IMG/VR virus record: IMGVR_UViG_3300032182_000686
Location: 1 to 33,999 of that record
Reading direction: 5' to 3' (one strand)
DNA length: 33,999 nt
Source: a virus
The notes under the pieces were generated by a model. That model was not told where the DNA came from. It ran no database searches and worked only from the letters and a program-made list of their open reading frames with translations. Numbering within the stretch: position 1 is the first letter of the stretch; the number at the start of each line of letters is the position of its first letter. The position numbers and the translations under genes were made by a program. Below, in pieces: positions 2,399 through 32,912 of the stretch.

Positions 2399-2800
2399 AT
2401 GCCTTTAGAACGAGTAAGTAAAAGTTTTACTGACTTAAGTATGACATTTAAGTCAAATCCTATTAATGGTGACTTGTTAAAACTTAAAAATGCACAAGCA
2501 ATTGCTCGTTCTGTGAGAAATTTAGTTGCAACTTTTCCAGGAGAAAGATTTTTTGAGCCAAAAATTGGTTCAGACGTTACTAGAGTTGTTTTTGAGCAAT
2601 TTGATACTGTTACATCATCCGAAATTCAATCTCAAATCGAATATACTCTTTCTTTATACGAACCTAGAATAAAACTTGATTCTGTAGAAGTTGCAAATGA
2701 TTATGAGGCATTAGAATTTAATGTTACAGTAAAATATGACATTATTGGATTAGAAGACCAACCTCAAGAAATATCATTCGCACTTCAGCCAAATCGATAA
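2399..2800 (+). CDS. 25: gp25-like baseplate wedge subunit
   Basis: A 133-aa protein of the gp25 family, the tail-sheath-proximal wedge component shared by contractile tails, close to the usual length. The diagnostic region is LKLKNAQAIARSVRNLVAT followed by FPGERFF (about residues 27-52), then a segment describing N-terminal and C-terminal parts of the fold (EIQSQIEYTLSLYEPRI, about 77-93). In T4, gp25 interacts with gp6 and gp53 and lies where sheath polymerisation begins. The gene is followed without any spacer by gp6 (TAA then ATG), so the two are almost certainly co-translated. The assignment rests on the conserved motif, the length and the position next to gp6. Confidence 0.95.
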   Translation: MPLERVSKSFTDLSMTFKSNPINGDLLKLKNAQAIARSVRNLVATFPGERFFEPKIGSDVTRVVFEQFDTVTSSEIQSQIEYTLSLYEPRIKLDSVEVANDYEALEFNVTVKYDIIGLEDQPQEISFALQPNR

Positions 2801-10700: not shown

Positions 10701-13700
10701 AATCATGGGTTTGAAACTAATGAGATTCTATCATATACGGGAAGTTCTATTATTGTAAGTCCAGATGGAACTACAGAAAATCAATTTTTTATAGAATCCA
10801 CAGACAAAGTTAGATCTGTTAAATTGTCTGAAGATTTAATAGGAATATCTACAGGGCCAGTTGGGATTGATTCTCTTGGTAATATAGTATCTCTTGAAAA
10901 TGGAAATGATGCATTAGTATATTTTTTAAATAAACCTACTAATACATCATCAAGTTTTAGAACACAGAGACCAAATATATTAACTGCTAAAGTATCACAA
11001 AGTATTGTAACTGTATCAACTTCTTCTACTCATGGGTTAAAGGAAAATGATATTATTAAAATATCAGTTAATCCTACTACAACAAAAACTACAGTGATTG
11101 AATATAATGATGAAGCAAGATTATTAGTGGTAGATCCTAAGAACTTTGTTTCATCTGATGTTGATGTTCAAAATAACACAATTACTATAGAAAATCACAA
11201 ATATAACACAGGAAATAAAATTCTTTATAAATCAAATTCTCCTATTTCTGGTCTAATTGATAATGAATTATATTACATTGTTGCTATAGATAGAAACACT
11301 TTTGCGTTAACCACTTCTTTATTTGAAAGTCAGAAAGAATTCCCACAATTTATTAATTTTGGTTCTTCAGAGGATGGAACAATATATTCCGTTAATCCAG
11401 AAATTGATATAATAGAAGGTCAAACAATATTTTTTGACTTGTCAAGCGAAAGTCTTTCTTTCACGCAAGGATCATCACCACAAAGAATATCGGCATTTAA
11501 ATTTGACATATTTGAAGATATTTCTTTCAATCATGTGTATATATCTTCAGGAGAAACAGATTCTTTTGATGTTTTATTTGAAGGTTCTGTAGGAGATATT
11601 GGAGCAAGTGTAAAATTAAATGTAACAAATAAAACACCTAAAAATTTGTATTATAAGTTAACCCCAATAGATGTTAATGGTATACCCATTGAAAAATTGG
11701 GTATTTTTATAGATTCTGAAGAAATTAATAATAATAGAATAACAGTAAGGAAAAGTAATTATGATGGGGAATATCGAATTTTTGATCCAATTGAAAGAGA
11801 TCCTTTAGTTCCTCCATTTTTATATTCCGAATTTAAATATCAAATTCCTGTTAATCCGGAATCTGAGTCTTATACTTTTGAAAATTCTACGATTCAATAT
11901 TCGACAAAATCAAAAAATACTTTTGGTCCTATATTTAAAGCAGTAATTAAAAATAGGGGCAGATATTTCTACAAATTACCCAAAAAAACTACTATAATAT
12001 CTGCAAACGGAAGTGGTGCTATATTAAGTGCCAACAGTAGATCCATTGGTGAAATAAAAACAGTCAATATTAGAGATATTGGGTTTGACTATCCATCCGA
12101 TTTTACGATTAGACCGATTGCAAAATTACCCACAATTTATAAAGTTGAACCTTTGTATTCTATAGATTTTATTAGAATATTAAACACAGGGACAAATTAT
12201 CTTTCTGCACCTAACATTGCAGTTATTGATAACAAGACAAATGAAAGAATAAACGATATTGTTTTATCATATCAGTTAGGAGACAATTTTGTTTCTATTA
12301 TTCGTAATACTAAAAATCTTTCTAATGTTATTCCTAAATTAATTCCCATTGATAATAGTAATGGAATACCAGTATTATTGAATCAGGGAGATCCTATTAT
12401 ATTGGATGCTAACGATACATCAGATCCTGACGAGGTGATTCTCGCCACTTCAGTATCTGGGTTAGATCTTGACGATCCAGATGTTAATTCGCAATATAAT
12501 TCATTAGTTTCTGCAAGTCCCGTAAACTCTCAGGCATTAATATTTTCTAATATACCAACAGCAAGAATATTTTTAGCGACTGAATATAGTTCCATTGCTG
12601 ATTTCCCATTTAGACTTGGAGATACCATTTTTATTGAGGATGTTATTACAATTGAAGAAACTAATGGTGGGACAAGTAACGGATATAACTCAATTAATAA
12701 TGGATTTGCCTTTTATAAGGTAGTTAGAGTTGATCCAAATATTGGTGGTGCCGGTGGATCTATATGGATAGATTTTAGTGGATATATTGATGATGATGTT
12801 TTGGATCCAGAAGATAGTAATTTTTATAAAGTAGATGAGATTTTATCGGAAGCTGCAAGAGTCATACCAACAAAATTCTTCCCAACATATGAAACTTTCT
12901 TACAAAAAAATAATTTTATATTAGATGAAGAACTTGTAACAGAATTAGGAACGTCAATTGGAACGGTTGAGCAATGGGATGATGCGAATGATTATTTAAA
13001 AATTGCAGAAACAATTACATTTGAAGAAGGCGACACTATAATTGGACAATCCTCAAAAACAAAAGCAATTTTACTAACTAAAATTGAATTTGATGCTGGT
13101 TATGTTGTATCTGATAGTTCTGTGGTTAATAAAGGATGGGACTTTGATACTGGAAAATTGAATAATGACTTGCAAAGAATGCATGATAGTGATTATTATC
13201 AATATTTTTCATACGCATTAAATTCAAAAATTTCAATTACAGAATGGAATGATGATGTTGGAGCATTAAATCATACATCTGGTTATAAGAGATTTGGAAA
13301 TTTGCAGGTAGACTCTTCTGGATTAGATTTTACTGGAATAAGAACAGACCAAAATGCGGGAGTATCTTTTGGACTTAGTGATATAATATCAGAGGTTAGC
13401 ACTAATTGTTACTATGATTTTGATTTAGTTAGAGAAATAACCTTTGGAAATCCAATAAAATCAAATGAGTTAGTTTTTGGATCAGCAATCCTTCAAGATT
13501 ACATCGAATCAATAAGCAATAGGGTATTAAGTATAGATGATATTAGTAAGAATTTTGAAGCTCTTCCTAGAGAAACTAATTTTTCTGTCATCGCAAGAGC
13601 GGATTCTACTGAGATTAGAACAATAAAAAGATTTTTCTATGTGCAAGATAGAAGATTTTTAGATGATAAGCAGACGACTATTTTTGTTACAACACATAAT

Positions 13701-15776: not shown

Positions 15777-15787
15777 AATAAAGATAA

Positions 15788-18700
15788 ATGTCAATTATTA
15801 ATAGTGGTTCTGGATTTTATGTCGGAAGAAGATTTGATGTTCAACTTAGTGCAGAATTAAGGCACCGAGGAGATTTAATCTTTGAGCGACAAATTGGATA
15901 TAATAGAGTATTTGAATTACAGGGATTTGTTAGTTTTACAGATAATACATTTACTATCCCAAATCACTTTTTTAGGACTGGTGAAAAACTTTTATATGAA
16001 TATGATGATTTTCAAAATGGAACTACAAATGCTATTGGAATAGCGACTACGACCACACAAGCTGGAATTACTAGTGTAATTCCATTATTTGTATACGCTA
16101 TAGCAGTAGATGAAAGAACAATACAAGTAGCTGGAACAAAAGAAGAAGCACTTAGAAGAATACCTAAACCTTTAGATCTGACAACTGTTGGGGCAGGAAC
16201 ATATCATAAATTTATAGGAGAAAAACAAAATACCAGAAGTTTAATTACAGTCGATAATGTAATACAAACACCTGCAATTGATACTGAGATTGTTACTACG
16301 CTTGCAGAAGATCTTTCCGGTGTCTCTGATTTTGTTAGAGTTGTTGGAGTTAATTCATTTTTTCCTGGCGATTTAATACGAATTGGTCAAGAAATAATGA
16401 AGATCAATTTAGTCCAAGATGAAAATAATGCTTTTATTGTTAGAAGACCTTTATTAGGAACTGGTCTTCAGGACTCTTCTGCTGGGAGTAAAGTAGTTAA
16501 GCAAACAGGCGCATATAAAATTGTTGATAGTATTATTTACTTCCCAGTTCCTCCATTTGAAAAATCACCAACTACTGATTTTGAAAGGAAAGATCCTCTA
16601 GATAGAGACTATGTTGGTCTGGAAACATTTTCAACTTTTGATGGAAGAGTTTTCTTACGATCTGGATTTGAAGACACTGAAATTGGTCCTTATGATAGAA
16701 ACTTTTTACTAGATGATATATCCAACCAATTTTTAGGAATAAGCACTCAAGGTGTATTAAAGGAGCAAGGCTCTAATATTGCTGGGTTTTCTACAGGAAA
16801 TGCTTTAGTATTAATTAATAATGTATTTCAAACGCCCGATTTTATTGACTATGGATTGGGAGAAAGTTCAGGAATAACAACAATTAGTTTTACCGGAAAG
16901 GCAACATCAAATCCCGAAGATATTAATTCATCTTCTATACCAAGGGGAGGAATTATAGTATCCATAGGAACCTCTGAGGGTTATGGTTATCAACCGTTAG
17001 TTGCTGCTGGTGGAACAGCTAATGTTTCTGCAGGAGGAACAATAAAATCTGTATCAATTGGATATACCGGATCTGGATATAGAGCACCAGAAATTTACAC
17101 ATTAAAAACTAGAATTTCATCACCAACATTTGCTCCAAATGGAAATAGATTTTATTTAGATGATGAAAATGGATTATTTAAACAATTAGAATATTTTAAT
17201 CCTTCCGAATATCCTGGAAATGGATCAAAATGTTCTATATCTATTAAAGACAGTATTGGAAATAATATTATATCCTCAAATGATTTTAATAGAATTGTTT
17301 CTGTCGGAGATACATATGTTGATATCAATCCATCCACTGCAGTAGATGCTTGGTCTTTAGTCTTTGATTCTACAAGTTTTATATTTTTTAGTTCAACAAA
17401 TGTAATTAGTGCCTCTGGAATTGCAACTAATAGAATAAGAGTGGCAAGTGTTGCTGGAATAGACACAGGTGCTGATGATTATTACCTTTCTATTGGATCT
17501 GTTGCTAGTAATATATTAATCGAAGATGTTGACGAGGTAAACTCCATATTTATTCTTGAAAATAATACTAGTGCTGGGTATGTAGATAATTCCGCAGTGA
17601 CAATAAAAACTTTCCAAAGTGGAATAGAACAAACAAATGTAGGAGATATAGTATACATTACAGTAACTGAACCAAGTGTTGGCGTTGCAAATGTTTATGT
17701 AAATACAAAAAGAGCATTCTCTGCAACTTCTGGAGATTATACTGATAATACCGGAATAACCACTATAAAAGCCCCAGGATTTGATGTTGATAAAGGAGAA
17801 ACAGTAGAATTACGTAACTTTATATACAAATGTAATAGTGGGGGAACTTTTGGAGATGCTCAAGGTTCATTTAATAAAAGATTGGGTATAAATTCAATTA
17901 CAGTAGATACCCAAATTTATAGTGTTTTAGATGCTACTTACGAACCAATTAGTGGAATTGCAACTTTAAATATAGGACCTCACGAATTAACATCTGAAAG
18001 ATTTTATATAGAATCTGAAGGACTTGGATTTAGTTGCACACTTGACTCAAACGCAACTACTTCATACTATCCTGGTCCAAATGATGCAAATTATAGGAAA
18101 ACTTATGATATTATTAGCACTACAGCAACAACTGTAGTTGTTGATGTTGGCGCAGCAGGAACAAATACTTCTGACCATACCTTTGAGAGGGTAAATAATT
18201 CCACTCTGAGTGATCCATATACGGTCACAGCAGCGACTTATGATGGTTCTACGGGATTATCTACAATAACCTTTAATGGTGCTCATGGACTCACCTCAAG
18301 CATCTCATACGATGCATTATATGCTGACTATGAACCAATATCCGGAATTGCAACAATAGCAATTACTGCGGACTCTCACCCACTACAAATTGGTGATAAA
18401 ATACTACTATCGCCAGAATCTTTAGGATTTACTTGCACTACTGATGGAAATGTTGAGGTAACTTATTACCCCAGACCAGTTGCATTAGATGGGGATCCGG
18501 ATCCATTATATGATACATTTGCCACAATTAGTGGAATTGGAGCAACTACGATTGAATTTGTTGCTGGTGCTTCTGTAGATACAAGTGAGCATACTTTTGT
18601 TGGTGTAAACACAATTACACCAAAACCAATCAAAGTTGCATCCGGTGATTATATATTCTTAGATGAAGAGGGATTAAGATTTTATTGTGATCTCGGTGGT

Positions 18701-21700
18701 CCAACTGATGTTTTTGGGTATCCAAGAGAAGAAAGTCCTATTACTGGAGATCCCGATTATGCATACAATAACTTACTTGAAATTTTAGAGGTTCCAACAG
18801 CATCATCCGTAGTTGTTTATGTCGGTTACACTGAAGATCCCCTTGCAATATCTCCCCATACTTTTGTCGATTCAACTCCTAATGCAGTAAGATCATCTAC
18901 AGGACAATCTAGATACTCTTCAGGAATTGTTACAGTTACAAATGAAGGTGATGTTTCAAATACATTAAACGCTGGTAATTTGGTTTTATTTAAAAATACC
19001 GGAACTTTATTAGATGATAATATTTTTACTGTTGTCAATTCTCCATTAGTTTATGGAAGTTCTTCAAATGCGTTTACAATAGATACTAATGAATTATTAT
19101 TACCAGCACCAAAAAATATTGATTTAAATTCTCCCGGTGACTTTGTTTTAGCGACTATTTCTTTACCTTCTGGAAAATTTGGATTTGAATTTGAAGTATT
19201 AGAAGTTTTTAGTGATGGATCGTTTGTCGTAAATACGGGAACAAATGTTTCGGCAAATAAGAGCACTTATGTTGGCGGTGGAGTAGTTAAAAATTCATCA
19301 AGAGGAAAAAATCCAGAGCATATTGGTGTTTCATCGATAAAAGATGGATATCTGGTTGATATAGAAATTACAAATGTTGGTGCTGGTTTCACCCAATACG
19401 ATTTATTTTCTAAGACTAATTTGTTTAGTGCCGCATCACTTGGTGATTCAACAGTTCGTATTTCAAATGCAATTGGAATAAACACTTATACTGATTATGT
19501 AACAATTAGAGAAGGGGAGACATATTTAAGTAAAATTCTTTCAATTACTGAAGGGACAAACTTCTTTGACTTGGAAATTGAACCAAGTATGTCTGGAGAT
19601 GCAGAGATTAAATCTGAAGTTGAAATATATCGATTTGATAGATTTGAATTGGATATTGATGATCCTCTTTCATATGATAATCTTTCCTTAGTTTATAGTC
19701 CGTCATCAGAAATTGGTATTGGAAGTTACGCTTCTGCGAACATAAGAGTCGGTAATGATGGCAGAGTTAAAGAAGTTGAATTATTAAATTCTGGTTATTC
19801 CTATGGACAGGGAGAGTTATTAACAGTTCCTGTTGGTGGTGTAACTGGTATACCAACATTTGGAGTCATAAATCAAGTCACTGGAATTAGTACTGCTGTT
19901 GGAATATTTACAGGATCTATTATTTCCAATGATGATAGATTTGGGTTCTCTGTAGCAATTAGTGCCGGAGGAACTACCATGGCAGTTAGTTCACCATATG
20001 GAGAAGGTGAAGAATTAAATGCTGCAGGTTTAGGAACTGCCTCCGGTGCTGTCTATATTTTTGATGATCAATCAGGTATAGGATATACCCAAGTTGGTAT
20101 TATAACAGGTCAATATTCTTCAGATTTTGAGGATAATTTTGGTTATTCTGTTGCAATGAGTTCAGATGGATGGAGAATTGCAGTTGGTGCTCCATTTGAT
20201 GAATTTCCAGATGCTGGAATTACTACAGGATTGGTATACATGTTTGATAGAAGTGCAGGTGACACATTTACCCAAGTTGGAATTTTAAGCACTTTAGATG
20301 ATACAAATTCTTCCCAGTTTGGATTTGACGTTGATATGTCATCTGATGGAAATGTAATAGTTGTTGGTTCTCCATTTGAAAATACCACAGGAAAAATTCA
20401 TGTATTTGAACGTGAACCTGGACCATCTTTTATTGGTGTGGCGACATTATCTGGTTCAGCCGCAAGTTTGAGCGATGATTTTGGTGCGTCTGTAGCGATC
20501 AGTCCCGAAGGACAATTTATAGCAGTTGGTGCTCCAGAAGATGAAGATACTGTCAATCAATTTACGAATTTTGGCGTAGTTTACATATTTGAAAAAACGG
20601 GATCAATTGTAAATCAAGTTGGTATTATAACATCTCCGAAATTAACTACATTAAAGTCATCTGCAGATAAATTTGGTTCTTCGGTCGATATTAGTAAAAA
20701 TGGAGAAATAGTTGCAGTTAGTGCAGTCGATGACAAGACAGCAATAGGAGAACCAACAAGTGGAATAGTATATGTTTATGAGAAAATTGAAGGTGAATAT
20801 TATCTTATTTCTAAATTACAAGGAATATATTCTACGGAAGATGATGATGATTTTGGAAATTCAATATCTTTAAGCGATGATGGAGAAGTTCTTGTTGTTG
20901 GTGCTAAAAATGACGAAAGACCAGATTTAGAAAATTCTACAGGTCTGTCCTATATTTACGAAAGAAGAACAAGAAATTATCTTGGAAATGATTTTGTTAA
21001 CATTGGAATTACTACTGGATTTTATAGTAATAATTTAAATGATAATTATGGTTCTTCTGTGGCAATATCACCAGACAAAACATCAATTATAGTTGGTGCT
21101 CAATATGATGAAATATCAACTACAGGAATTGGAACTTCTGGAGTTGCTTATGTGTATGATATTACAGTTGGTAATATTTTTGAGGAATTTTTAATTAGCG
21201 TTGATAGAACCTTTACTGATGAATTTGCAGGTTATGTATTTGGAGATCTTGTTGTTTTTGATGATATATCTAGATTGTTTAATGGAAAACGAGTGGAATT
21301 TCCAATACGACTTAATGGTTTACAAACAACATTAAGAGCAAGACCGGGATCGACATTAGAACTTGAGTATAATTTATTAGTCTTCATAAATGATATATAC
21401 CAAATTCCAAATCAATCGTATTCTTTTGAGGGTGGGAGTATTTTAACATTTTTAGAAGCACCCAAAGAGGGTGATAAATGTGTAATCATATTTTATTACG
21501 GAACTACAGAAGTTGATACTAGATTAGTTGACATTCTCGAAACAATTAAGATAGGTGATGAAGTTACTGTCAATGCAGATGTAATATCTTTACAGCAAGA
21601 TCCTAGAGTAGTGACAGATATAAGATCAACTGATACTATAGAAACTAATGTATATTCGACACCAGGGGTAACTGAGGACAATCAATTAGAAAGACCGATA

Positions 21701-22861
21701 ACTTGGTGTAAACAGTTGGTTGATAAAGTGATTGATGGAAACGTTGTAGGTAAATCAAGATCGCCATATGAACCTCAAATTTTATCTAAAACACAGGTAA
21801 TTCAACCTTTAGGAATTGGAACTGAGGAAGTTTTTGTTGAAAATGTTAGAACATTTTTCGACAGTGATGATGAGTATGAAGATGTGGGAATTAATAAGAG
21901 ACCTCAAAATGATATTATTATTATTTCAAATGATGAAGAGGTTACAGCGACCGGAAATGCTTTCGTTGGAAATGATTTAAGAATTAGTAGTGTATCAATT
22001 TCAAATGTTGGTAGTGGATATACCTCATCTGATCCACCAGACATCTCATTCTCTTCTCCTGCTTTTGCAGGAATAGGAACAACAGTATTTGAGGTAGCAC
22101 AAGCTACTTTAGAAATAACAAATGGATCTATATCTGGGGTTAATTTAACTAATCCTGGATATGGATATACGACAAACCAAGTTTTAAAAGTTTTAATTTC
22201 TCCACCAAAAACAAAATATGAAGTAATTGAAGATGTTGTATATGAAGGTGACTTTGGATGGATTACTGGTATAGGAACAACATCTACATTATCATCGGAA
22301 AACAATTTTGTATTCGAGTTGTATATAACTGAAGATTCTTTCTTAAGAGATGAATCAATTGTAGGAACACAAGTAAAAGAATCTACAATACAAGAAAATT
22401 ATTTCTTTAGAGTTAGTAAATCTAACGTTGGTAATGGAACTGACATTGGATATGGCATAACTTCATATTATAATGGAACTACCGATATTTTATTCAATGG
22501 TGACAAATTCTTAGATGGAGTTTACAATGTATCATCAGTTTCTATCGCCAGAACAGAAGTTCCAGGTCTTACTGTTGGATTTGGAAGAACTGATATTGTT
22601 AGGGTTACTGTTCCTGTCCAGAGTTATAATGGAATTGATGTTGAAAGTGGTGGATTTATAGGAACTATCGGTGGAGGTCCTGGTGTTGGATACACATATG
22701 CACAATATTTTGGAAATTATTCATGGGGAAGAATTTCTAGTATGAATAGATCATTACCTCAAGACTTTGGATTTTACAATAATGGGGATTCCGGAATTAA
22801 TTCTTCCCCAACAATACTCAGAGTTAATCCTCTAAAATCTGAAGGGTATACACCAAACTAA
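15788..22861 (+). CDS. Giant structural protein with seven-repeat beta-propeller
   Basis: A 2357-aa protein between the gp7-position giant and gp8. The start MSIINSGSGFYVGRRF and the C-terminal end (WGRISSMNRSLPQDFGFYN) look like conserved terminal regions of marine T4-like phage baseplate proteins. In order it contains an HFFRTGEKLLY unit (about residue 58); conserved blocks with FVRVVGVNSFFPGDLIRIG and FINGIFQTP-like LINNVFQTP (to about 360); two G-x-G-Y modules (about 390-440); three tandem repeats of roughly 100 aa (about 715-1030); more G-x-G-Y units; and a complete FG-GAP-like beta-propeller (about 1375-1798). A beta-sandwich-like segment (FINDIYQIP) and two final G-x-G-Y modules follow. 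No signal peptide or catalytic motif is seen. It is spaced 11 bases from the previous stop. It is probably a baseplate-associated adhesin or wedge protein; no T4 equivalent can be named. Confidence 0.82.
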   Translation: MSIINSGSGFYVGRRFDVQLSAELRHRGDLIFERQIGYNRVFELQGFVSFTDNTFTIPNHFFRTGEKLLYEYDDFQNGTTNAIGIATTTTQAGITSVIPLFVYAIAVDERTIQVAGTKEEALRRIPKPLDLTTVGAGTYHKFIGEKQNTRSLITVDNVIQTPAIDTEIVTTLAEDLSGVSDFVRVVGVNSFFPGDLIRIGQEIMKINLVQDENNAFIVRRPLLGTGLQDSSAGSKVVKQTGAYKIVDSIIYFPVPPFEKSPTTDFERKDPLDRDYVGLETFSTFDGRVFLRSGFEDTEIGPYDRNFLLDDISNQFLGISTQGVLKEQGSNIAGFSTGNALVLINNVFQTPDFIDYGLGESSGITTISFTGKATSNPEDINSSSIPRGGIIVSIGTSEGYGYQPLVAAGGTANVSAGGTIKSVSIGYTGSGYRAPEIYTLKTRISSPTFAPNGNRFYLDDENGLFKQLEYFNPSEYPGNGSKCSISIKDSIGNNIISSNDFNRIVSVGDTYVDINPSTAVDAWSLVFDSTSFIFFSSTNVISASGIATNRIRVASVAGIDTGADDYYLSIGSVASNILIEDVDEVNSIFILENNTSAGYVDNSAVTIKTFQSGIEQTNVGDIVYITVTEPSVGVANVYVNTKRAFSATSGDYTDNTGITTIKAPGFDVDKGETVELRNFIYKCNSGGTFGDAQGSFNKRLGINSITVDTQIYSVLDATYEPISGIATLNIGPHELTSERFYIESEGLGFSCTLDSNATTSYYPGPNDANYRKTYDIISTTATTVVVDVGAAGTNTSDHTFERVNNSTLSDPYTVTAATYDGSTGLSTITFNGAHGLTSSISYDALYADYEPISGIATIAITADSHPLQIGDKILLSPESLGFTCTTDGNVEVTYYPRPVALDGDPDPLYDTFATISGIGATTIEFVAGASVDTSEHTFVGVNTITPKPIKVASGDYIFLDEEGLRFYCDLGGPTDVFGYPREESPITGDPDYAYNNLLEILEVPTASSVVVYVGYTEDPLAISPHTFVDSTPNAVRSSTGQSRYSSGIVTVTNEGDVSNTLNAGNLVLFKNTGTLLDDNIFTVVNSPLVYGSSSNAFTIDTNELLLPAPKNIDLNSPGDFVLATISLPSGKFGFEFEVLEVFSDGSFVVNTGTNVSANKSTYVGGGVVKNSSRGKNPEHIGVSSIKDGYLVDIEITNVGAGFTQYDLFSKTNLFSAASLGDSTVRISNAIGINTYTDYVTIREGETYLSKILSITEGTNFFDLEIEPSMSGDAEIKSEVEIYRFDRFELDIDDPLSYDNLSLVYSPSSEIGIGSYASANIRVGNDGRVKEVELLNSGYSYGQGELLTVPVGGVTGIPTFGVINQVTGISTAVGIFTGSIISNDDRFGFSVAISAGGTTMAVSSPYGEGEELNAAGLGTASGAVYIFDDQSGIGYTQVGIITGQYSSDFEDNFGYSVAMSSDGWRIAVGAPFDEFPDAGITTGLVYMFDRSAGDTFTQVGILSTLDDTNSSQFGFDVDMSSDGNVIVVGSPFENTTGKIHVFEREPGPSFIGVATLSGSAASLSDDFGASVAISPEGQFIAVGAPEDEDTVNQFTNFGVVYIFEKTGSIVNQVGIITSPKLTTLKSSADKFGSSVDISKNGEIVAVSAVDDKTAIGEPTSGIVYVYEKIEGEYYLISKLQGIYSTEDDDDFGNSISLSDDGEVLVVGAKNDERPDLENSTGLSYIYERRTRNYLGNDFVNIGITTGFYSNNLNDNYGSSVAISPDKTSIIVGAQYDEISTTGIGTSGVAYVYDITVGNIFEEFLISVDRTFTDEFAGYVFGDLVVFDDISRLFNGKRVEFPIRLNGLQTTLRARPGSTLELEYNLLVFINDIYQIPNQSYSFEGGSILTFLEAPKEGDKCVIIFYYGTTEVDTRLVDILETIKIGDEVTVNADVISLQQDPRVVTDIRSTDTIETNVYSTPGVTEDNQLERPITWCKQLVDKVIDGNVVGKSRSPYEPQILSKTQVIQPLGIGTEEVFVENVRTFFDSDDEYEDVGINKRPQNDIIIISNDEEVTATGNAFVGNDLRISSVSISNVGSGYTSSDPPDISFSSPAFAGIGTTVFEVAQATLEITNGSISGVNLTNPGYGYTTNQVLKVLISPPKTKYEVIEDVVYEGDFGWITGIGTTSTLSSENNFVFELYITEDSFLRDESIVGTQVKESTIQENYFFRVSKSNVGNGTDIGYGITSYYNGTTDILFNGDKFLDGVYNVSSVSIARTEVPGLTVGFGRTDIVRVTVPVQSYNGIDVESGGFIGTIGGGPGVGYTYAQYFGNYSWGRISSMNRSLPQDFGFYNNGDSGINSSPTILRVNPLKSEGYTPN
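17929..18865 (+). repeat. Three tandem protein repeats of about 100 residues
   Basis: Three diverged copies lie at about 17929-18200, 18311-18605 and 18643-18865 (protein residues about 715-803, 842-938 and 952-1026). Copies 1 and 2 open with YEPISGIAT; the shared core is an E-x-LGF-x-C type motif (ESEGLGFSC, SPESLGFTC, DEEGLRFYC), then a YPGP/YPRP/YPRE turn, a strand of V-x-VG type, and a closing HTF. Each core has a single cysteine in the same place. The repeat is visible in the protein, not as a near-identical DNA repeat. Confidence 0.8.
19903..21180 (+). repeat. Seven FG-GAP-like beta-propeller repeats
   Basis: Seven copies of the pattern D-x-(F/Y)G-x-(S/D)-(V/I)-x-(I/M/L)-S-x-x-G-x-x-(I/M)-x-V-(G/S)-(A/S) occur, with the FG/YG aromatic at residues 1385, 1451, 1511, 1565, 1629, 1689 and 1754 of the protein starting at 15788. 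Spacing is 54-66 residues. Each copy is followed by a strand of G-x-V-Y-I-F/Y type. Seven blades of this length fit an integrin-alpha-like closed propeller. Calcium-binding DxDxDG loops are not evident. Confidence 0.88.
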
Positions 22862-22907: not shown

Positions 22908-24482
22908 ATGGCTGCAATCATTACTGACCAATTAAGAATACTGAATGCAAAGACTTTTTTGGAAACGATTTCGGATCCATCAAACTCTTTTTATACCTTT
23001 GTTGGACTTCCAAATCCTTTTGACTACAGCACTACTTGGGATGTAACACCACCATCGCCCAAAGATAGTTTTGATCAAGAGGATATTTCTTGGGATAATA
23101 TGATTGCTTTAAAAAAAATTAAAGCAGATGATGTTAAACAAGTTGTGAGAAAAGTAGAGTGGATTTCTGGTGTTATTTACGATAGGTATCGTAATAATAT
23201 TAATAGAGATAATTTAGCAAATCAATCTTCTTCAACATCTTTATATACATCAAATTATTATGTAGTAACTAGTGATTTTAGAGTTTATATTTGTTTGGAA
23301 AATGGAGAAGATCCCGAGAACCCAAATGGAAAACCAAGTTTAGACGAACCAAGATTTACAGATTTGGAACCGAGATCTGCTGGAAATAGTGGAGACGGAT
23401 ATGTATGGAAATATTTGTATACAATTAATCCTTCTGATGTGATTAGATTTGATTCAACTCAATACATTCCCGTTCCAAAAAATTGGGATAGTAATAATGA
23501 TGTTGCATTAATAAGAGATAATGCTGCAGAAGGTGGACAATTAAAAACCATTATTGTTAAAAATAGAGGTGAGGGATTAGGGATACCTAATAGAATTTAC
23601 AGTAATATTCCAATTAAAGGCGATGGAGAAAATGCACAATGCACTATCGTAGTGAATAATGACTCTAGAGTTGAGAGTGTTACTATATCAAATGGTGGAA
23701 ATGGTTACACTTTTGGTAGGGTTGATTTAGAAGCAGGTGGATTTCCAGTAAGTGGAGCAACTGTAATCCCAACATTTGAAGTTGTTATTCCACCAAAAGG
23801 TGGTCACGGAGCTGACATATACAGAGAATTGGGATCTACAAGTGTATTAGTTTATAGTAGATTAGAGAATGATGAACAAGACCCAGATTTTATTATAGGA
23901 AACCAAATTTCCCAAATAGGAATATTAGCAAATCCAAAATCATTTGGATCTAATGAATTGCTGACAAAAGATAAAGCAAGTGCTGTTTATGCCTTAAAAT
24001 TGGGAACTGGATTTGAAGATGCTACATTTAACGCAGATAGTTTTATTACTCAAACTGTTGGTGCCGGTTTAACTGCAGTTGGTAGAGTCATTTCTTACGA
24101 CTCAACAACTGGAATATTAAAGTATTGGACTGATAGAACCAATTATGGGTTTAATTTTTTAGGTGATCAATCTACATCAACTTATGGATTTGAGGTAATT
24201 GAATTTACAGCAAATCCTGATTTTATAACAGGTGGAAATGTAAATATTATCGGTGAATTATCAACCATACCAATTGATACTACATTTGGAACTTCGTTAG
24301 AACCCGGTATAAGTACCACAATAAATAATAGGACATACTATGTTGGTCAGCCTTTTGTAGAAGGCGTATCTAACCCAGAAGTTAAAAAATATTCTGGAGA
24401 TCTAATTTATGTTGATAATAGACCCCCAATAACAAGGTCTCAGAATCAAAAAGAAGATATTAAAGTTATTTTGCAATTTTAA
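22908..24482 (+). CDS. 8: gp8-like baseplate wedge protein, enlarged
   Basis: This 524-aa protein is recognised as gp8 by motifs that line up with T4 gp8 from memory: FYTFVGLPNPF near the N-terminus, a PPSPKDSFDQEDISWDNM segment, a central GDGYVWKYLYTINPSDVIR block followed by YIPVPKNW, and the C-terminal signature LIYVDNRPPITRSQNQKED. T4 gp8 has 334 residues. The extra length here includes an insertion of about 100-200 residues holding two G-x-G-Y modules (RGEGLGIPNR and NGGNGYTFGR, about residues 210-280), shared with the neighbouring giants. gp8 forms dimers on the wedge and binds gp10 and gp7 in T4. A late-promoter octamer lies upstream, and the next gene starts after six bases. Confidence 0.93.
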   Translation: MAAIITDQLRILNAKTFLETISDPSNSFYTFVGLPNPFDYSTTWDVTPPSPKDSFDQEDISWDNMIALKKIKADDVKQVVRKVEWISGVIYDRYRNNINRDNLANQSSSTSLYTSNYYVVTSDFRVYICLENGEDPENPNGKPSLDEPRFTDLEPRSAGNSGDGYVWKYLYTINPSDVIRFDSTQYIPVPKNWDSNNDVALIRDNAAEGGQLKTIIVKNRGEGLGIPNRIYSNIPIKGDGENAQCTIVVNNDSRVESVTISNGGNGYTFGRVDLEAGGFPVSGATVIPTFEVVIPPKGGHGADIYRELGSTSVLVYSRLENDEQDPDFIIGNQISQIGILANPKSFGSNELLTKDKASAVYALKLGTGFEDATFNADSFITQTVGAGLTAVGRVISYDSTTGILKYWTDRTNYGFNFLGDQSTSTYGFEVIEFTANPDFITGGNVNIIGELSTIPIDTTFGTSLEPGISTTINNRTYYVGQPFVEGVSNPEVKKYSGDLIYVDNRPPITRSQNQKEDIKVILQF

Positions 24483-24488
24483 AAAGTC

Positions 24489-27400
24489 ATGCCCCAGGAA
24501 ACCAATTTCAACGTATCTCCATATTTTGACGATTTTGATAAAGATAAGGATTATTACCGGGTGCTTTTTAAACCCGGATATCCCATTCAAGCAAGGGAAT
24601 TGACTACTTTACAGTCAATGCTCCAGAATCAAATTGAAAATTTTGGCAACAAATTTTTAAAAGAAGGTGAAATTGTAATTCCTGGGAATGTAAGTTACAA
24701 TAATCCAACTTATGCTGTAGAAATTGATCCATCATTCAATGGTCTTCCAATCAATTTATATTTTTCTGAATTGAAAGGAAAAAAAATAAAAGGATTGAAT
24801 AGTGGAGTAACAGCAGAAATATATGATTTAATTACAAATTCTGAATCAGAAAGGGGAAATTATACATTATATGTAAAATACTTAGAGAGTGGTGGAGAAG
24901 AACTTAATATTAAAAGATTTCAAGATGGGGAAACTTTACTTTCGTTAGATTCAATTTCGTATGGAGAAAATAAAAAATTCGTAATTCAACAAAATCAAGA
25001 GTTTCTTAATACAATTAGTATAAATTCAACATCAGAATCTTCATCGGTAAGTATTTCAGAAGGTGTAGCATTTATTAGGGGATTTTTTGTTAATTTTGGT
25101 GCTCAAAATTTAATTTTAGATCAATATTCTACAGAATCTTCATATAAAGTTGGATTTGATATCGTAGAAAGAATTGTTACTTCAGATGAAGACGAAAGTC
25201 TTTATGATAATGCAAGAAATTTTTCAAATTATACAGCACCGGGGGCAGATAGATTAAAATTTGAATTATTTTTAGCAAAGAAAGAATTAATTGATACCGA
25301 AATTGATAATTTCGTTGAATTAATGAGAGTTGTCGATGGTATTCCAATATTTCCTGATGTAAATCGAGATGAAACGAAACCAGCACTAACAGCAAAAACG
25401 GAAAGCGCAAAAGCCGTTTCTGACACAAGCGGTGACTTTTTTGTTAAACCATTTTCGGTAAATGTAAGAGATGGACTCAATGACGGATTATTAAATAATG
25501 GAATTTATTTTGAAGATCAGTCTACTGTTGGTGGAGAAACGCCAACGGAAGATAAATTTGTATACCAAATTGGTCCAGGAAAGGCTTATATTGGTGGATA
25601 TGTTGTAGAGACAGTATCTTCTAGACTTTTAGATGTTGAAAAACCAAGAGATACCGACACTTGCACCAAAGAGACAGTTCAATATACCGCAGGTAACTTA
25701 GTAGTACTTAATAATACGTATGGAACACCTCCTATTGGAATAGGAACAAATCTAACTGTAAGTTTAATGACAGATAGATTGGGATTAGATAAGTCAGTTG
25801 CTTCCGGAACAACAATAGGATTAGCAAGAGTATATGATTTTGTTCCTGAGAGTTCATATGAAAATAATTTAAGTAGGATGCATCTTAGATTATTTGATGT
25901 TCAAACATTTACTAAATTAAATTTCTTAAAGTCTGTTCCAGTATATTCTCCATCATTCTTCAGAGGATCTAAAAGTAATGCAACTGGACATGCATTAGAT
26001 GTTTCGCCAAAAGCAGACATACAAACAATAACATTCCCATCTGTAGGAATTGGAACAATTCAATTTGAGACTGGTTTTGACTTGGCAGAATTAACTCTAG
26101 ATGTCGATACTGGTTTGTCTCCTGGAGATGTAGTATTTTTAGACAACATATCCGATGTAGACGCTTCAAATTATTTAAGTTATGAAAAAAGAGGTCCTTT
26201 GACTGTAAGCGCATCTATTGGAAGAACATTTTCAGTAAATTTCAATACAAACGCATCAATATATGGTTCTTTAGATAATGATGCTAGTTCACTACCATCT
26301 GATATTTCCACTTTAGATCTCAGTGCAGCAGATTTTGTAGTATCAACTGCAATTCCAACTGTAAATTCAACATCTCATGGATTTAATCCGGGAGATGAAA
26401 TTTACATTTTTGATACTAGTAATTCTTATTTCAATAAAAGATTTATAATAGATACAACTCCGACTGCAAACACATATACTTTATTGGATGTTTCTGCAAT
26501 TAATAGTGGAATTCAATATTTTGGTGGAGTTACAAGTTCTACTGGAGGAGAAGCTTTAGTTGGTATAACAAGTGTAAGATTATATGAGGTTAATGGCAAA
26601 TTTGCAAAGAATGAAGGTTTTTCGGTAAATGGAATAGATCAAGGAAGGTTAATTGATAGTATAACTGACTATGATTTATCTCAAGTAAAATCAGTATTTT
26701 CTGATGATACTGTAGAAACTGTTTCTTCTTTTAATGCTGATGTAATTTTAGAAAACACATCATCACTTGCTCCGGCAGGAACATTATTTAAAGTTACAGT
26801 AACAGATTTAGCGACTGGAATATCAACAATATCTACAGCAACACCAAAAGATATAACTACAAATTTAAAAGTTGGTGATATCGTTTCATATTCAAATCCA
26901 AACGCACCAGAATCAACAAATGGAAGAATACCACCAACATATAATAAAGTTGTCTCGATAAATTCTAATGGTAGATCTTTTGAGGTTATTGGAGTATCCA
27001 CTGTAACTGATTATATTGATGGTTCTACTTTTTATGGTGGAGATCTTGAGATAGAGGTAACAAATGTAGAAAAAGTTTCTTCTTCACTTTATGGAGATCC
27101 AGAAGAAGAAAGTTTGTTGACAAGATTAAATAATGAAAATATTTCTAGCATTGATTTTGAAGAAAATACAATTACTCAGAGAATATCTTTTAAAAACGTA
27201 ACTATTGTAAATTCAACTGTAACTATTTCTATAGATCCTGCAGATGAAGATGTATTTTTTGCTTCTTTTGATGAAGATAGATACGTTATTAACTATTCTG
27301 ATGGTTCGATAGAAGTAATTAGATTTGATAAATTTAATATCGATAGTACTGGAAAATCTGCTCAATTTGTCGGATTATCTCAGTCAAGTGGAAGTGCAGA

Positions 27401-30400
27401 TGTAATAGCAACTGTAACTAACTTTAAATTAAATTCAAAAACTAAAAAATTTAATTCCGTAAGTGTTTTAAATGTATCAAGATCTAAGTTTTCTGGTTCT
27501 GGTTCAACAATTGAAAGTTTAGAAGACGGATTGACTTTTAGTAGAGTTTATGGAACAAGAATTCAAGATGAAGAAATTTCACTGAATGTTCCAGACGCAG
27601 TTAGAGTTCTTGCTATATTTGAATCATCAGATTCATCTTTACCAATTTTACCTAGTTTACAGATTAGTGGAACTAATGCTCAAAGTTATGTTTTAGGTGA
27701 GTATATTGTAGGTGAATCCAGTGGAGCTATAGGTATACTTGTTGAGAAAACAAATACAAGTGTTTTAGAATTTGTTTATTTAAACTCTAAAACTTTTATA
27801 GAAGGTGAGGTAATATTAGGTAAAAAATCTACTCTTAAAACAAATATTACAGCAATAACTATTGGTTCTAAAAATATTACTCAAAATTTTGAATTTGATG
27901 ATGGTCAAACAAATTCTTACTATGGATATAGTAGCATTATTCGTAAGAGTAAAGTTGATCCTCCAAAAAGATCATTAAAAATTGTTTTCCAAAATTATTC
28001 TGTAGACTCTAGCGATACTGGAGAATTATTTACTGCAAACAGTTATAATCCAGAAAACTATAAATATGATGTTCCCATCTTTGATGACACTAGAAATAGT
28101 GATTATATAGATTTAAGAGCAAGGGTTTCTAAGTATGATTTGTCATCAAATAGGTCTCCATTTGAATTTTATCAAAGAGATTTTTCTGGGCAAGGTCAAT
28201 ATGCAAAATACATATTAGCGCCAAATGAGTTATTGCAAGTTTGTTACAAATATTATGTTGGTAGAGTTGATAAAATAATTTTAAATCCGAATGGTTCATT
28301 TGGAGTATTGCAAGGTGAACCATCCCTATCTCCAATAGAACCAGAAACTCCTGATGGATGTTTGGAAATTGCAACAATCAATCTTCCGCCGTTTGTTTTT
28401 AATGTAGATAGTATTGAAGTTGATGTTGAAAATCACAAAAAATATACAATGCAAGATATTGGTCTTCTTGAAGATCGTATTAGAAGATTGGAAGAATATA
28501 CAATATTAACTGCATTAGAAACTAGCACAGAAAATTTAAAAATTCAAGACGCAGAAACTGGATTAGATAGATTTAAGTGTGGATTTTTTGTTGACACTTT
28601 CAAAAATACTGCTCTTCATGATGAAGAAGATCCAGACTACAGTTGTGCAATTGATGATGTAGAAAATGTTTTAAGACCAACTCACTATACAACTGCATTA
28701 GATATGCAATTGGGATCTGAAGTAATATCTGGTGTAGGTGCAACATTCAAAGAAAATTTTGATCACGATTTTGTCACTGATTTGGGTTCTAATGGAATTA
28801 GAAAAACTGGAGATTTAATCACTTTAAATTATGAAGATCAAGAATATTTTGATCAACCATATGCAACAAGAACTGAAAGTGTAACACCGTTTTTGGTTAA
28901 GTATTGGACGGGTACAATAACTTTAAATCCCCCAAGTGACAGTTGGATAGAAGAGCGTGAAATTGTAAATAGAAGTTTCCAAACAAGAACGGAAACACTT
29001 CCAGCACTCCCAGATATAAACATAACTGTAACTAATAATATTACTAGAAATAGAAGAGTATTTCGTAATAGAGTTGTAACTCAAAGAGGTATATGGTGGA
29101 GAAGATGGATAAACTCTAGAGGAATGTGGGTAAGAAGAGGAAGATGGTGGAATAGAAGAAGATTCTTCCAATCTGGCGTTAACCTTAGAAGATTTTTAAC
29201 TAGAGGAACTGGAAGACTCAGTAGTAGAATTGTAAATCAAAATGGAAGACAAGCAATTCAATTTAGAGTTCGTAGAGGTAATCTTACTGGAGCAGAATTT
29301 GTTTTCTTAAGAAGAGTTCTCCCAAGAGACGTTGCTGAAGGTTTTATCACGAGAATACGTAATAGAAGAAGAAATTTCCAACTCTTCATGCTATTTGCTC
29401 CAGGTGAAGTAGCTAATAGAAGAACCAGAACTGTTTCCACAACAGTAAGAACGACAAGAACTACTAATACTACGGTAATACCACCGCAAATAAGAGAAGA
29501 AACTACAGTTGATGAGCAAGTTTCCAATTTTACAGAACCAACTAGATTTTTAAGATCTAGAAATATAGAATTTGATGTTAAGGGTCTTAGACCAAGAACA
29601 AGATTTTACTCTTTCTTTGAGGGAATTGATGTATCCAGATATATTGTCCCCAAATTATTAGAAATTGAAATGGTTTCCGGAAAATTCCAAATAGGTGAAA
29701 CTGTAGAAAGTGATCCACACTTTACTGCTAAAAAAATAAGATTTAGACTTTGCAATCCGAATCATAAAATTGGCCCATTTAGTTCTCCAACGGAAACTTT
29801 TAGTTTTATACCCTATAGACAATCTGAACCACCTGTTGCATATACAGAAGCATCAGATTATCTTAATGTAGACACTAGAGCACTCGAACTTTCTTCTGAG
29901 ATTGACTTTTATGGGGAAGTTGCCGTAAACATGCAAGTAATTGGTAAAACTTCAGGTGCTGTTGCTAGAATTACAAATATAAGACTAGTTTCAGACAATT
30001 CTGGAAGATTGATTGGTTCTTTATTTGTTCCTGATCCAAAAGTTCAAGAAAATCCAAAATGGATTAATGGAGAAAACACATTTACTGTGATAGATACACC
30101 ATCATTATCGGAAGTTGCGTCTGGTGATAGTAATGTTGTAAATGAAAGTTCAGCAGAAGAAGATTTTACTTCTTCGTCTATAACAAATGTGACCCAAAGA
30201 AATATTACAACCACAAGAAATATAATTATTACACCAGCAAGAAATGTTAATACTACCAGAATTACTAATGTAAGAACAAATACAACTGCCATAACAAATA
30301 CTAGAATAAGAGGTAGACGCAGAAGACTTGTAAGAAATTGGGAGGTTTGGGATCCTCTTGCACAATCTTTCTATGTTAAAGATGAAACAGGAGTCTTTAT

Positions 30401-32912
30401 TACAGGTGTAGATGTTTATTTTGAAACAAAGGATGAATCTCTTCCCGTAACCATGCAGTTGCGAACAATGGAAAATGGAACACCTACAACAACGGTATTT
30501 CCTTTCTCCGAAATAACTTTAGATCCATCCCAAATTAACTTGTCAGTTGATGGATCTGTTCCTACTAGATTTACTTTTGCATCTCCGATATACCTTTCTG
30601 GACCACAAGCACAGGAAGTTAGAGGAGCACCAATAGCAAGTGATACAAGCGCGGAATATTGTGTTGTTCTATTATCTAATAGTTCAAATTATAGGGTGTT
30701 TATTTCTAGACTTGGTGAGAATGACATAATTACAAATATTAAAATAGGAGCTCAACCAACACTTGGTAGTTTATTCAAATCTCAAAATGGATCTACTTGG
30801 ACTCCAACCCAACTGGAAGATCTTAAGTATAAATTGTATCGTGCAGACTTTGTGGAGTCTGGAACAGTTAGATATTTTAATCCACTTCTTGGACTAAAAA
30901 ATGGAAAAGTTTCTGTTCTCGGTGAAAATCAAATTACTACTTTATCTAAGAAAAATGTACTCAGACTTGAAGGAAGTGAAAATATAAAACCCGAAGTTGT
31001 TCCAGGTGTTACAATATTCCAACCTGGTAACGCCAAAGGAAAATTAGTCGGTGTTGGGGGAAGCATATCAACAGGATTTGGTGTGACAGTAACAAATGCT
31101 GGTGTGGGATATACGCCAGCATCTGGAACATTCACATTTGATGATGTTTCATTGGAAACTATTTCGGGATCTGGAGTTGGTGCTGTAGGTAATGTAAAAG
31201 TAACTGATGGAAAAATAGTAAGTATTGATATAACGTCAGGTGGATACGGTTATGACGTTGGTGATTATTTAAAAGTTCCTTCAATAGGAACTGATGTTGG
31301 ATTCGGAGGTGAAGTATTAGTTGATAATATTTCTATAAGAAATACACTTATAGTCGATAACATCGAAAAAGGAAATACTTTAACTGCAACATCAGCAGCT
31401 TTCTTTGGATCTGGTGACATTTTATATTTACAAAATAGCGGAATTGGAACTTATGTCACCACAAATAGATCTAGACTTAAATCTGATGGTGTTATCCAAG
31501 ATCCCTTTTATGATGGAGCGCATATTAGACTGGACGTTTTAAATCATGGAAATCATTCATCTCAAAATCTCGTAAGAATTAGTAATGTTAGACCGGAAGA
31601 AGATGAACCAAATTCAGTCTTAACAAACTCAATTACATCAACTGAAAATAATATAATAGATATTGGTGATACAACAGGTTTTGAGATATTTGAAGGAAGT
31701 GCAGTTACAGATTCAAATCCAGGATATGTAATTATTGGAACTGAAGTTGTTGGTTATACAACTTATACTTCTACTGCTTTAGGTGGAGGTCCGGATACAA
31801 TTCAAAGAGGAGTTGATGGAACTGAGTCTCAACCATATGCTACAAATATCCCAGTTTACCGATATGAATTTAATGGAGTTTCATTGAGAAGAATTAATAA
31901 AATTCATCCAATGGGATCAGTTAACCAAGAAATACATAAAACAAAACTTAATTCTTTCTATCTGAAGATAAATTCTTCGGATACAGACGAATTTGATAAC
32001 ACTATTGGTTTTCCTTTAGGTTCTAACATGACATTTAATGAAACTAAAGGATTGGGTGATTCTGGTTCTATAGTTTCTACAAATATACCATATGAAATTC
32101 TAACTCCCAACTTCGCTCATGTAATACCATCACAGACCAACATAACAACTAAAGTTCGCACTTTTAGCGGAACTAGTATTGATGGCAATGAGGTTTCATT
32201 TGAAGATCAAGGATTTGAGAGTATGTCGATTTCTGAAGCTATAAAATTCCCAACACCAAGATTAGTTGCCTCTGTAATTAATGAAAAAGAAAATCTTAAA
32301 GACTCTGGTGTTCCTGGAAACAGAAGTCTTTCGATGGAATTTGATTTAACCACACAAGATAGTAGAGTCTCTCCCATCATTGATGATGTAACTACTGGGG
32401 TAATCTTAACATCAAATCTTATTAATGCCCCAGCTGGAATAGGAGAAGACTCTTCGTTTGCAGATGTTGATTACATTAGAGGTGGTGGCGATGAACATAC
32501 TGCAATTTACATATCTAAACCAATATCATTAAAACTTCCTGCAAATTCGCTGAAAGTATTACTTAAATCTGCTAGAAGTACAGAAAATGATGTAAGAGTC
32601 TTATACAAATTATTCAGAAAAGACTCACCATCTGGAGAATCTAACTATGAACCATTCCCTGGATATTCAAATTACGAAGAAGATTCTAGTGGAATTTTAA
32701 GAGTTGTAGATGCATCCAAAAATGATGGATCAGAAGATGTCAAATCAAATGATAATTCTTCATCGGAATATCAAGATTATGAATATACCATTGATAATTT
32801 GGAAGATTTTACTGGATTCTCGATAAAAATTATTATGGCATCCGAAAATCAAGCAGATCCTCCTTATGTTAAAGATTTGAGAGCGATTGCTACACTTAAA
32901 CCTTCATTATAA
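24489..32912 (+). CDS. Giant DUF4815 structural protein with Arg/Trp-rich block
   Basis: A 2807-aa protein. The N-terminus (NFNVSPYFDDFDKDKDYYR, then RVLFKPGYPIQARELTTLQ) is the diagnostic start of DUF4815, a family of phage structural proteins common in T4-like cyanophages. In order it has an HGFNPGDEIYIF unit (about residues 630-660); a conserved helical segment with DIGLLEDRIRRLEEYT (about 1322-1340) followed by GLDRFKCGFFVDTF; an Arg/Trp-rich block (1520-1560 and beyond); a conserved FLRSRNIEFDVKGLRPRTR domain (about 1680 on); and a second Asn/Thr/Arg-rich stretch ending in RGRRRRLVR. Then come DPLAQSFYV (from 1955), two G-x-G-Y modules (about 2200-2260), and a C-terminal region ending ASENQADPPYVKDLRAIAT. 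Lying between gp8 and gp13, it takes the place of T4 genes 9-12 and wac, so it is probably a baseplate or tail-fibre structure. Exact role unknown. Confidence 0.88.
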   Translation: MPQETNFNVSPYFDDFDKDKDYYRVLFKPGYPIQARELTTLQSMLQNQIENFGNKFLKEGEIVIPGNVSYNNPTYAVEIDPSFNGLPINLYFSELKGKKIKGLNSGVTAEIYDLITNSESERGNYTLYVKYLESGGEELNIKRFQDGETLLSLDSISYGENKKFVIQQNQEFLNTISINSTSESSSVSISEGVAFIRGFFVNFGAQNLILDQYSTESSYKVGFDIVERIVTSDEDESLYDNARNFSNYTAPGADRLKFELFLAKKELIDTEIDNFVELMRVVDGIPIFPDVNRDETKPALTAKTESAKAVSDTSGDFFVKPFSVNVRDGLNDGLLNNGIYFEDQSTVGGETPTEDKFVYQIGPGKAYIGGYVVETVSSRLLDVEKPRDTDTCTKETVQYTAGNLVVLNNTYGTPPIGIGTNLTVSLMTDRLGLDKSVASGTTIGLARVYDFVPESSYENNLSRMHLRLFDVQTFTKLNFLKSVPVYSPSFFRGSKSNATGHALDVSPKADIQTITFPSVGIGTIQFETGFDLAELTLDVDTGLSPGDVVFLDNISDVDASNYLSYEKRGPLTVSASIGRTFSVNFNTNASIYGSLDNDASSLPSDISTLDLSAADFVVSTAIPTVNSTSHGFNPGDEIYIFDTSNSYFNKRFIIDTTPTANTYTLLDVSAINSGIQYFGGVTSSTGGEALVGITSVRLYEVNGKFAKNEGFSVNGIDQGRLIDSITDYDLSQVKSVFSDDTVETVSSFNADVILENTSSLAPAGTLFKVTVTDLATGISTISTATPKDITTNLKVGDIVSYSNPNAPESTNGRIPPTYNKVVSINSNGRSFEVIGVSTVTDYIDGSTFYGGDLEIEVTNVEKVSSSLYGDPEEESLLTRLNNENISSIDFEENTITQRISFKNVTIVNSTVTISIDPADEDVFFASFDEDRYVINYSDGSIEVIRFDKFNIDSTGKSAQFVGLSQSSGSADVIATVTNFKLNSKTKKFNSVSVLNVSRSKFSGSGSTIESLEDGLTFSRVYGTRIQDEEISLNVPDAVRVLAIFESSDSSLPILPSLQISGTNAQSYVLGEYIVGESSGAIGILVEKTNTSVLEFVYLNSKTFIEGEVILGKKSTLKTNITAITIGSKNITQNFEFDDGQTNSYYGYSSIIRKSKVDPPKRSLKIVFQNYSVDSSDTGELFTANSYNPENYKYDVPIFDDTRNSDYIDLRARVSKYDLSSNRSPFEFYQRDFSGQGQYAKYILAPNELLQVCYKYYVGRVDKIILNPNGSFGVLQGEPSLSPIEPETPDGCLEIATINLPPFVFNVDSIEVDVENHKKYTMQDIGLLEDRIRRLEEYTILTALETSTENLKIQDAETGLDRFKCGFFVDTFKNTALHDEEDPDYSCAIDDVENVLRPTHYTTALDMQLGSEVISGVGATFKENFDHDFVTDLGSNGIRKTGDLITLNYEDQEYFDQPYATRTESVTPFLVKYWTGTITLNPPSDSWIEEREIVNRSFQTRTETLPALPDINITVTNNITRNRRVFRNRVVTQRGIWWRRWINSRGMWVRRGRWWNRRRFFQSGVNLRRFLTRGTGRLSSRIVNQNGRQAIQFRVRRGNLTGAEFVFLRRVLPRDVAEGFITRIRNRRRNFQLFMLFAPGEVANRRTRTVSTTVRTTRTTNTTVIPPQIREETTVDEQVSNFTEPTRFLRSRNIEFDVKGLRPRTRFYSFFEGIDVSRYIVPKLLEIEMVSGKFQIGETVESDPHFTAKKIRFRLCNPNHKIGPFSSPTETFSFIPYRQSEPPVAYTEASDYLNVDTRALELSSEIDFYGEVAVNMQVIGKTSGAVARITNIRLVSDNSGRLIGSLFVPDPKVQENPKWINGENTFTVIDTPSLSEVASGDSNVVNESSAEEDFTSSSITNVTQRNITTTRNIIITPARNVNTTRITNVRTNTTAITNTRIRGRRRRLVRNWEVWDPLAQSFYVKDETGVFITGVDVYFETKDESLPVTMQLRTMENGTPTTTVFPFSEITLDPSQINLSVDGSVPTRFTFASPIYLSGPQAQEVRGAPIASDTSAEYCVVLLSNSSNYRVFISRLGENDIITNIKIGAQPTLGSLFKSQNGSTWTPTQLEDLKYKLYRADFVESGTVRYFNPLLGLKNGKVSVLGENQITTLSKKNVLRLEGSENIKPEVVPGVTIFQPGNAKGKLVGVGGSISTGFGVTVTNAGVGYTPASGTFTFDDVSLETISGSGVGAVGNVKVTDGKIVSIDITSGGYGYDVGDYLKVPSIGTDVGFGGEVLVDNISIRNTLIVDNIEKGNTLTATSAAFFGSGDILYLQNSGIGTYVTTNRSRLKSDGVIQDPFYDGAHIRLDVLNHGNHSSQNLVRISNVRPEEDEPNSVLTNSITSTENNIIDIGDTTGFEIFEGSAVTDSNPGYVIIGTEVVGYTTYTSTALGGGPDTIQRGVDGTESQPYATNIPVYRYEFNGVSLRRINKIHPMGSVNQEIHKTKLNSFYLKINSSDTDEFDNTIGFPLGSNMTFNETKGLGDSGSIVSTNIPYEILTPNFAHVIPSQTNITTKVRTFSGTSIDGNEVSFEDQGFESMSISEAIKFPTPRLVASVINEKENLKDSGVPGNRSLSMEFDLTTQDSRVSPIIDDVTTGVILTSNLINAPAGIGEDSSFADVDYIRGGGDEHTAIYISKPISLKLPANSLKVLLKSARSTENDVRVLYKLFRKDSPSGESNYEPFPGYSNYEEDSSGILRVVDASKNDGSEDVKSNDNSSSEYQDYEYTIDNLEDFTGFSIKIIMASENQADPPYVKDLRAIATLKPSL
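29046..29471 (+). other. Arg/Trp-rich cationic segment of the DUF4815 protein
   Basis: Residues 1520-1560 (29046-29168) contain 15 Arg and 6 Trp in 41 residues with no Asp or Glu, including GIWWRRWINSRGMWVRRGR. The following hundred residues remain Arg-rich (RNRRRNF, RRTRTVSTTVRTTRTT) with only a handful of acidic residues. The rest of the protein is ordinary to acidic, so this is a marked local departure. Confidence 0.85.

Follow-up and report, generated by a model that had tools for sequence, protein, structure and literature searches.

Why does a large and mostly acidic baseplate protein carry a block of arginine and tryptophan? The question arose in a virus record of 33,999 bases, here called the window, which contained a T4-like baseplate cluster according to profile matches (Table 1). 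The phage is T4-like and related to cyanophages. The baseplate gene next to the gp8-like gene encodes a protein that matched Pfam DUF4815 (PF16075; E 2.4e-52, 178.5 bits, cut-off 30) and phrog_358 (E 0, 1796.8 bits), and judged by these profiles it is a member of the DUF4815/VrlC family. The closest named relative, from Synechococcus phage B23, was 52% identical across 87% of the query, and the relative in the PDB was ORF65 (9euf). The phage homologues were annotated as VrlC or structural protein and lay immediately 3' of gp8. The same placement was observed in the window, where the gp8-like ORF stopped 6 bases ahead of the VrlC ORF, within the baseplate cluster; P-SSM4 and S-B05 shared this gene order. 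VrlC is described as a component of the two-layered baseplate (PMC7029224), and for VriC a role as cell-facing prongs of the baseplate has been proposed (PMC11721090). From these homologues we infer that the window protein is located in the virion baseplate. Upstream, phrog_2885 (4179 positions) was matched by two adjacent ORFs (4701-22861; profile positions 91-2822 and 3647-4177), which look like the two parts of a single giant gene that has been split. A ferredoxin-family auxiliary metabolic gene (phrog_3704) was located at 1368-2015, ahead of the baseplate cluster.

Table 1. Positions of the baseplate genes and of the VrlC features in the window.
Feature	Position	Strand	Basis or remark
gp25-like	2399-2800		name rests on gene order and 'baseplate wedge subunit' annotation
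gp6-like	2801-4699		name rests on gene order and 'baseplate wedge subunit' annotation
Giant wedge family phrog_2885, first ORF	4701-15776		3691 aa
Giant wedge family phrog_2885, second ORF	15788-22861		2357 aa
gp8-like baseplate wedge protein, beside VrlC	22908..24482	+	phrog_438, E 7e-160; acidic, net -22
DUF4815/VrlC (VriC, TmpG-like) baseplate protein	24489..32912	+	2807 aa
Variable insert of DUF4815 region, here Arg/Trp-rich	29016..29441	+	residues ~1510-1651; alignment of 93 distinct relatives
Arg/Trp core, R15 W6	29040..29162	+	residues 1518-1558; clade pattern RGI[WF]xxRWI...RRxxW
Small beta-beta-alpha-alpha-beta subdomain, Arg-rich in window phage	29217..29396	+	residues 1577-1636; AlphaFold2 pLDDT 81-89
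Second basic loop, just ahead of conserved DPLAQSF	30195..30338	+	residues ~1903-1950

A sequence-only reading of the locus had described the block as a dense Arg/Trp stretch followed by a strongly basic one, at odds with the rest of the protein, and its counts were borne out. The densest 41-residue window, the core listed in Table 1, contained no D, E or K. The 142 residues encoded at 29046-29471 (1520-1661) held 37 Arg, no Lys and four acidic residues, giving a net charge of +33 against -97 for the whole protein, and neither D nor E occurred in a run of 93 residues (1510-1602). When the protein was shuffled (n=2000), the highest Arg count per 41 residues was 14 (mean of the maxima 7.0), compared with the observed 15. 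In GC3 and in its choice of Arg codons (34 of 37 AGA) the block matched the rest of the gene, so there was no sign of foreign DNA, and horizontal gain of the block was set aside.

In an alignment of IMG/VR relatives and named phages, the block was an insert flanked on both sides by conserved parts of the DUF4815 region. The net charge of this insert ranged from -24 to +30 among 93 distinct relatives, and the Arg/Trp form was restricted to one clade in the tree, comprising the window phage and L095, L003, L002, L012 and L014 (L numbers denote relatives). The insert of the sister lineage L004/L015 did not have this form. By alignment, the block is thus one lineage's form of an insert that varies across VrlC relatives. 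Within the clade, 8 of the 37 Arg and 2 of the 6 Trp were fully conserved, and both of these Trp were also present in the sister lineage, which is not Arg-rich. Neither of the two outcomes that the sequence-only reading had named as fatal to itself was found: the residues were not a core kept invariant in all relatives, and the block was not unconserved low-complexity drift. In L012 and L014, the closest pair with the Arg/Trp form (dS ~0.4), the insert had a dN/dS of 0.04 and is therefore under purifying selection; its most variable part differed by eight synonymous changes and one non-synonymous change. Between deeper pairs, the insert evolved faster than its flanks.

Other lineages carried inserts of different composition. 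Those of L068, L078, L081 and L087 were Tyr/Trp/Gly-rich (SYNYGYYGNWWWGWPYGYGWGYWG-like) and accompanied by a second loop with three Trp, while Lys-rich inserts occurred in L056 (26 Lys, no Arg) and L063 (20 Lys, 2 Arg), again with Lys in the second loop. The insert of L124 was unusually long (309 aa), with a Pro/Ala/Gly-rich middle. Searches beyond the family returned little. The block alone had no match in phages by blastn and tblastn, to which low-complexity masking may contribute, no relative was found by a scan of genome contigs, and the Arg/Trp core had no phmmer match in the PDB. When the insert class was scanned against Pfam and PHROG, matches were limited to the parent family or arose by chance.

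AlphaFold2 modelled residues 1518-1575, including the Arg/Trp core, without confident structure (pLDDT <50), and predicted the following beta-beta-alpha-alpha-beta subdomain with good confidence. In the alignment of the insert class, the subdomain region carried a LPPDVA..FIT motif. Foldseek and VIA-align searches, run with two models, returned no informative fold match for the subdomain (best VIA Z 3.3); this missing match does not indicate a new fold. The barrel-like domain after the insert aligned weakly (Z 4.4, tied with unrelated EF-Tu barrels) with 5iv5_BJ, which from its chain length we take to be T4 gp7. T4 gp7 had no sequence match to the window VrlC, and the window has a separate giant wedge protein upstream.

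A second basic loop, which the sequence-only reading had not mentioned, lay about 250 residues from the insert, within an acid-free run (1893-1951) holding 12 Arg and no Lys. In L091, seven consecutive prolines (FFAPPPPPPPRRNWG) stood in this loop, just ahead of DPLAQSF. Across 80 relatives, the two loops were correlated in Arg fraction (rho 0.85) and in charge (rho 0.65), and the correlations persisted in independent contrasts (Arg r 0.73, charge r 0.58), in which control segments gave r 0.04-0.19 for Arg. Without the Arg/Trp clade, the Arg correlation was 0.61; when L033, L056 and L063 were also removed, it was 0.51 and that of charge 0.25 (p 0.15). Both loops of L056 and L063 used Lys with almost no Arg, and both loops of L033 were Arg-rich. 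In Lys content, the insert also co-varied with the stretch that separates the two loops (r 0.50). Within the Arg/Trp clade and its sister, the seven windows whose charge varied most, out of the whole protein, all fell in the two loops. These concerted charge changes among related phages suggest that the loops share an electrostatic docking surface, as opposed to forming a peptide that attacks membranes. Both loops are positive, so they do not pair with each other by charge; most simply, they would have a negatively charged partner in common.

The charge of the insert was also related to that of the virion proteins around it. In a set of 29 full-length proteins, a more basic insert went with a more acidic remainder of VrlC (rho -0.58), and the trend was stronger in the long-insert class (rho -0.68) and for the 150 residues upstream (rho -0.83); gp8 acidity likewise rose with insert charge (rho -0.53). 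None of these full-length correlations was corrected for phylogeny. In independent contrasts, the correlation with the upstream segment was r -0.39, and leaving out the Arg/Trp clade weakened it to -0.23 (p 0.06). In this clade and its sister, loop basicity and the acidity of the rest of VrlC followed a perfect rank order. The giant wedge protein followed the same trend in the three phages compared, with a charge per 100 residues of -5.1 (window), -5.0 (L003) and -3.3 (L014).

Our leading explanation, to which we assign a probability of roughly 0.4, is that the two loops form one charge-tuned basic docking surface on a baseplate arm or prong, for acidic partners in the virion. The insert and the loop ahead of DPLAQSF would probably lie next to each other in space, and the surface would most likely dock on acidic faces of its neighbours, namely the VrlC body, gp8, the giant wedge protein or the fibres. 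Loop charge may have been tuned as the baseplate partners grew more acidic, and binding may stabilise the assembly or the pre-contraction state. The sequence-only reading was thus partly supported: of the functions it proposed, binding of a polyanion or in assembly is still the most plausible kind, given that the basicity of the loops goes together with acidity in VrlC itself and in gp8, but the membrane-active peptide proposed beside it gained no support. Against a docking surface stand the variation of most Arg positions, the low-confidence model of the Arg/Trp stretch, the weaker correlations once particular lineages were removed, the Lys co-variation of the segment between the loops and the spread of acidification beyond VrlC. 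A more specific version, in which the two distant loops act as one electrostatic latch whose strength co-evolves with the acidity of the virion proteins around it and helps to set assembly or the trigger of contraction, we consider rather speculative.

The partner could instead belong to the host. Both loops would then form a tip directed at the host and bind a cell-surface polyanion (lipopolysaccharide, capsule or S-layer glycan) at adsorption, and lineages would vary with their hosts. This reading stays in contention because the VriC prongs are proposed to face the cell (PMC11721090) and VrlC belongs to the two-layered baseplate (PMC7029224). The strong lineage dependence of insert charge and composition, including the Tyr/Trp/Gly-rich and Lys-rich forms, and the faster evolution of the insert relative to its flanks between deeper pairs are in keeping with it. 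However, host binding does not predict a loop charge that follows virion protein acidity, and the part of VrlC that diverged most within the clade was not the block but residues 500-720 (25986-26648; mean identity 25-50% per 50 aa). We regard this explanation as unlikely, although it is the strongest of the rivals. Since VrlC and gp8 acidity scales with the loops, an acidic virion partner is moderately favoured as the most likely one, over a host polyanion.

A habitat in which proteins are more acidic, such as more saline water, could drive both charge trends, because VrlC was not alone in becoming acidic: 7 of 10 orthologues encoded elsewhere in the L095 genome were also somewhat more acidic. 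Arg patches at contacts would then be denser to hold against salt and an acidic background. The Arg-rich phages also have a more acidic gp8 and a more acidic giant wedge protein, which fits this view, as does the use of Arg but not Lys. The shift in the L095 orthologues was nevertheless small and mixed, and no correlation with acidity was seen in non-homologous genome regions, a comparison too noisy to rely on. We therefore rate a habitat effect as improbable.

Arg/Trp-rich cationic antimicrobial peptides have a bulk composition that resembles the window block, a likeness that the sequence-only reading had raised. A membrane-active segment of this kind would disturb the host envelope on contact. 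Four of the six Trp positions were not fully conserved even in the clade and were absent from the sister lineage or most relatives. Unlike such peptides, the stretch showed no amphipathicity above chance, as its maximum hydrophobic moment did not exceed that of shuffled sequences at 100, 160 or 180 degrees, and it is embedded in a structural protein of 2807 residues. Most relatives lack the composition, and residues 1577-1636 are predicted to fold as a small subdomain. This putative role is very improbable. Least probable is compositional drift of a dispensable loop, which the variation of most Arg positions in the clade would allow but which is largely refuted by the L012/L014 substitutions given above and opposed by the coordinated change of the insert with the second loop.

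The DUF4815/VrlC family is itself already known, and no description of the Arg/Trp form, the co-varying second loop or the charge balance was found in the literature searched. VrlC is widespread, in marine T4-like phages, Ackermannviridae and Herelleviridae, and two loops that co-vary in charge offer a concrete surface for docking or triggering, with a signal that can be searched for in solved homologous baseplates.

The window protein agrees in family and size class with the VrlC/VriC proteins (DUF4815, PF16075) of cyanophages, pelagiphages and Ackermannviridae, and shares with cyanophages its position directly after gp8. What sets it apart from them is that its insert is rich in Arg and Trp and its second loop in Arg; in the named cyanophage members compared, the insert was approximately neutral or acidic. 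TmpG of Kayvirus (phage A3R) and ORF65 in the PDB (9euf and others), which have the same length, align with the window protein in the insert flanks and the DPLAQSF region. The flanks of the window profile aligned to ORF65 (9euf) at 559-624 and 679-711, which places the equivalent of the insert at about 620-679; that of the second loop falls at about 745-790. TmpG is shorter than the window VrlC (1152 aa) and its insert comprises 80 residues with a net charge of -3, while its loop ahead of DPLAQSF is basic (net +8).
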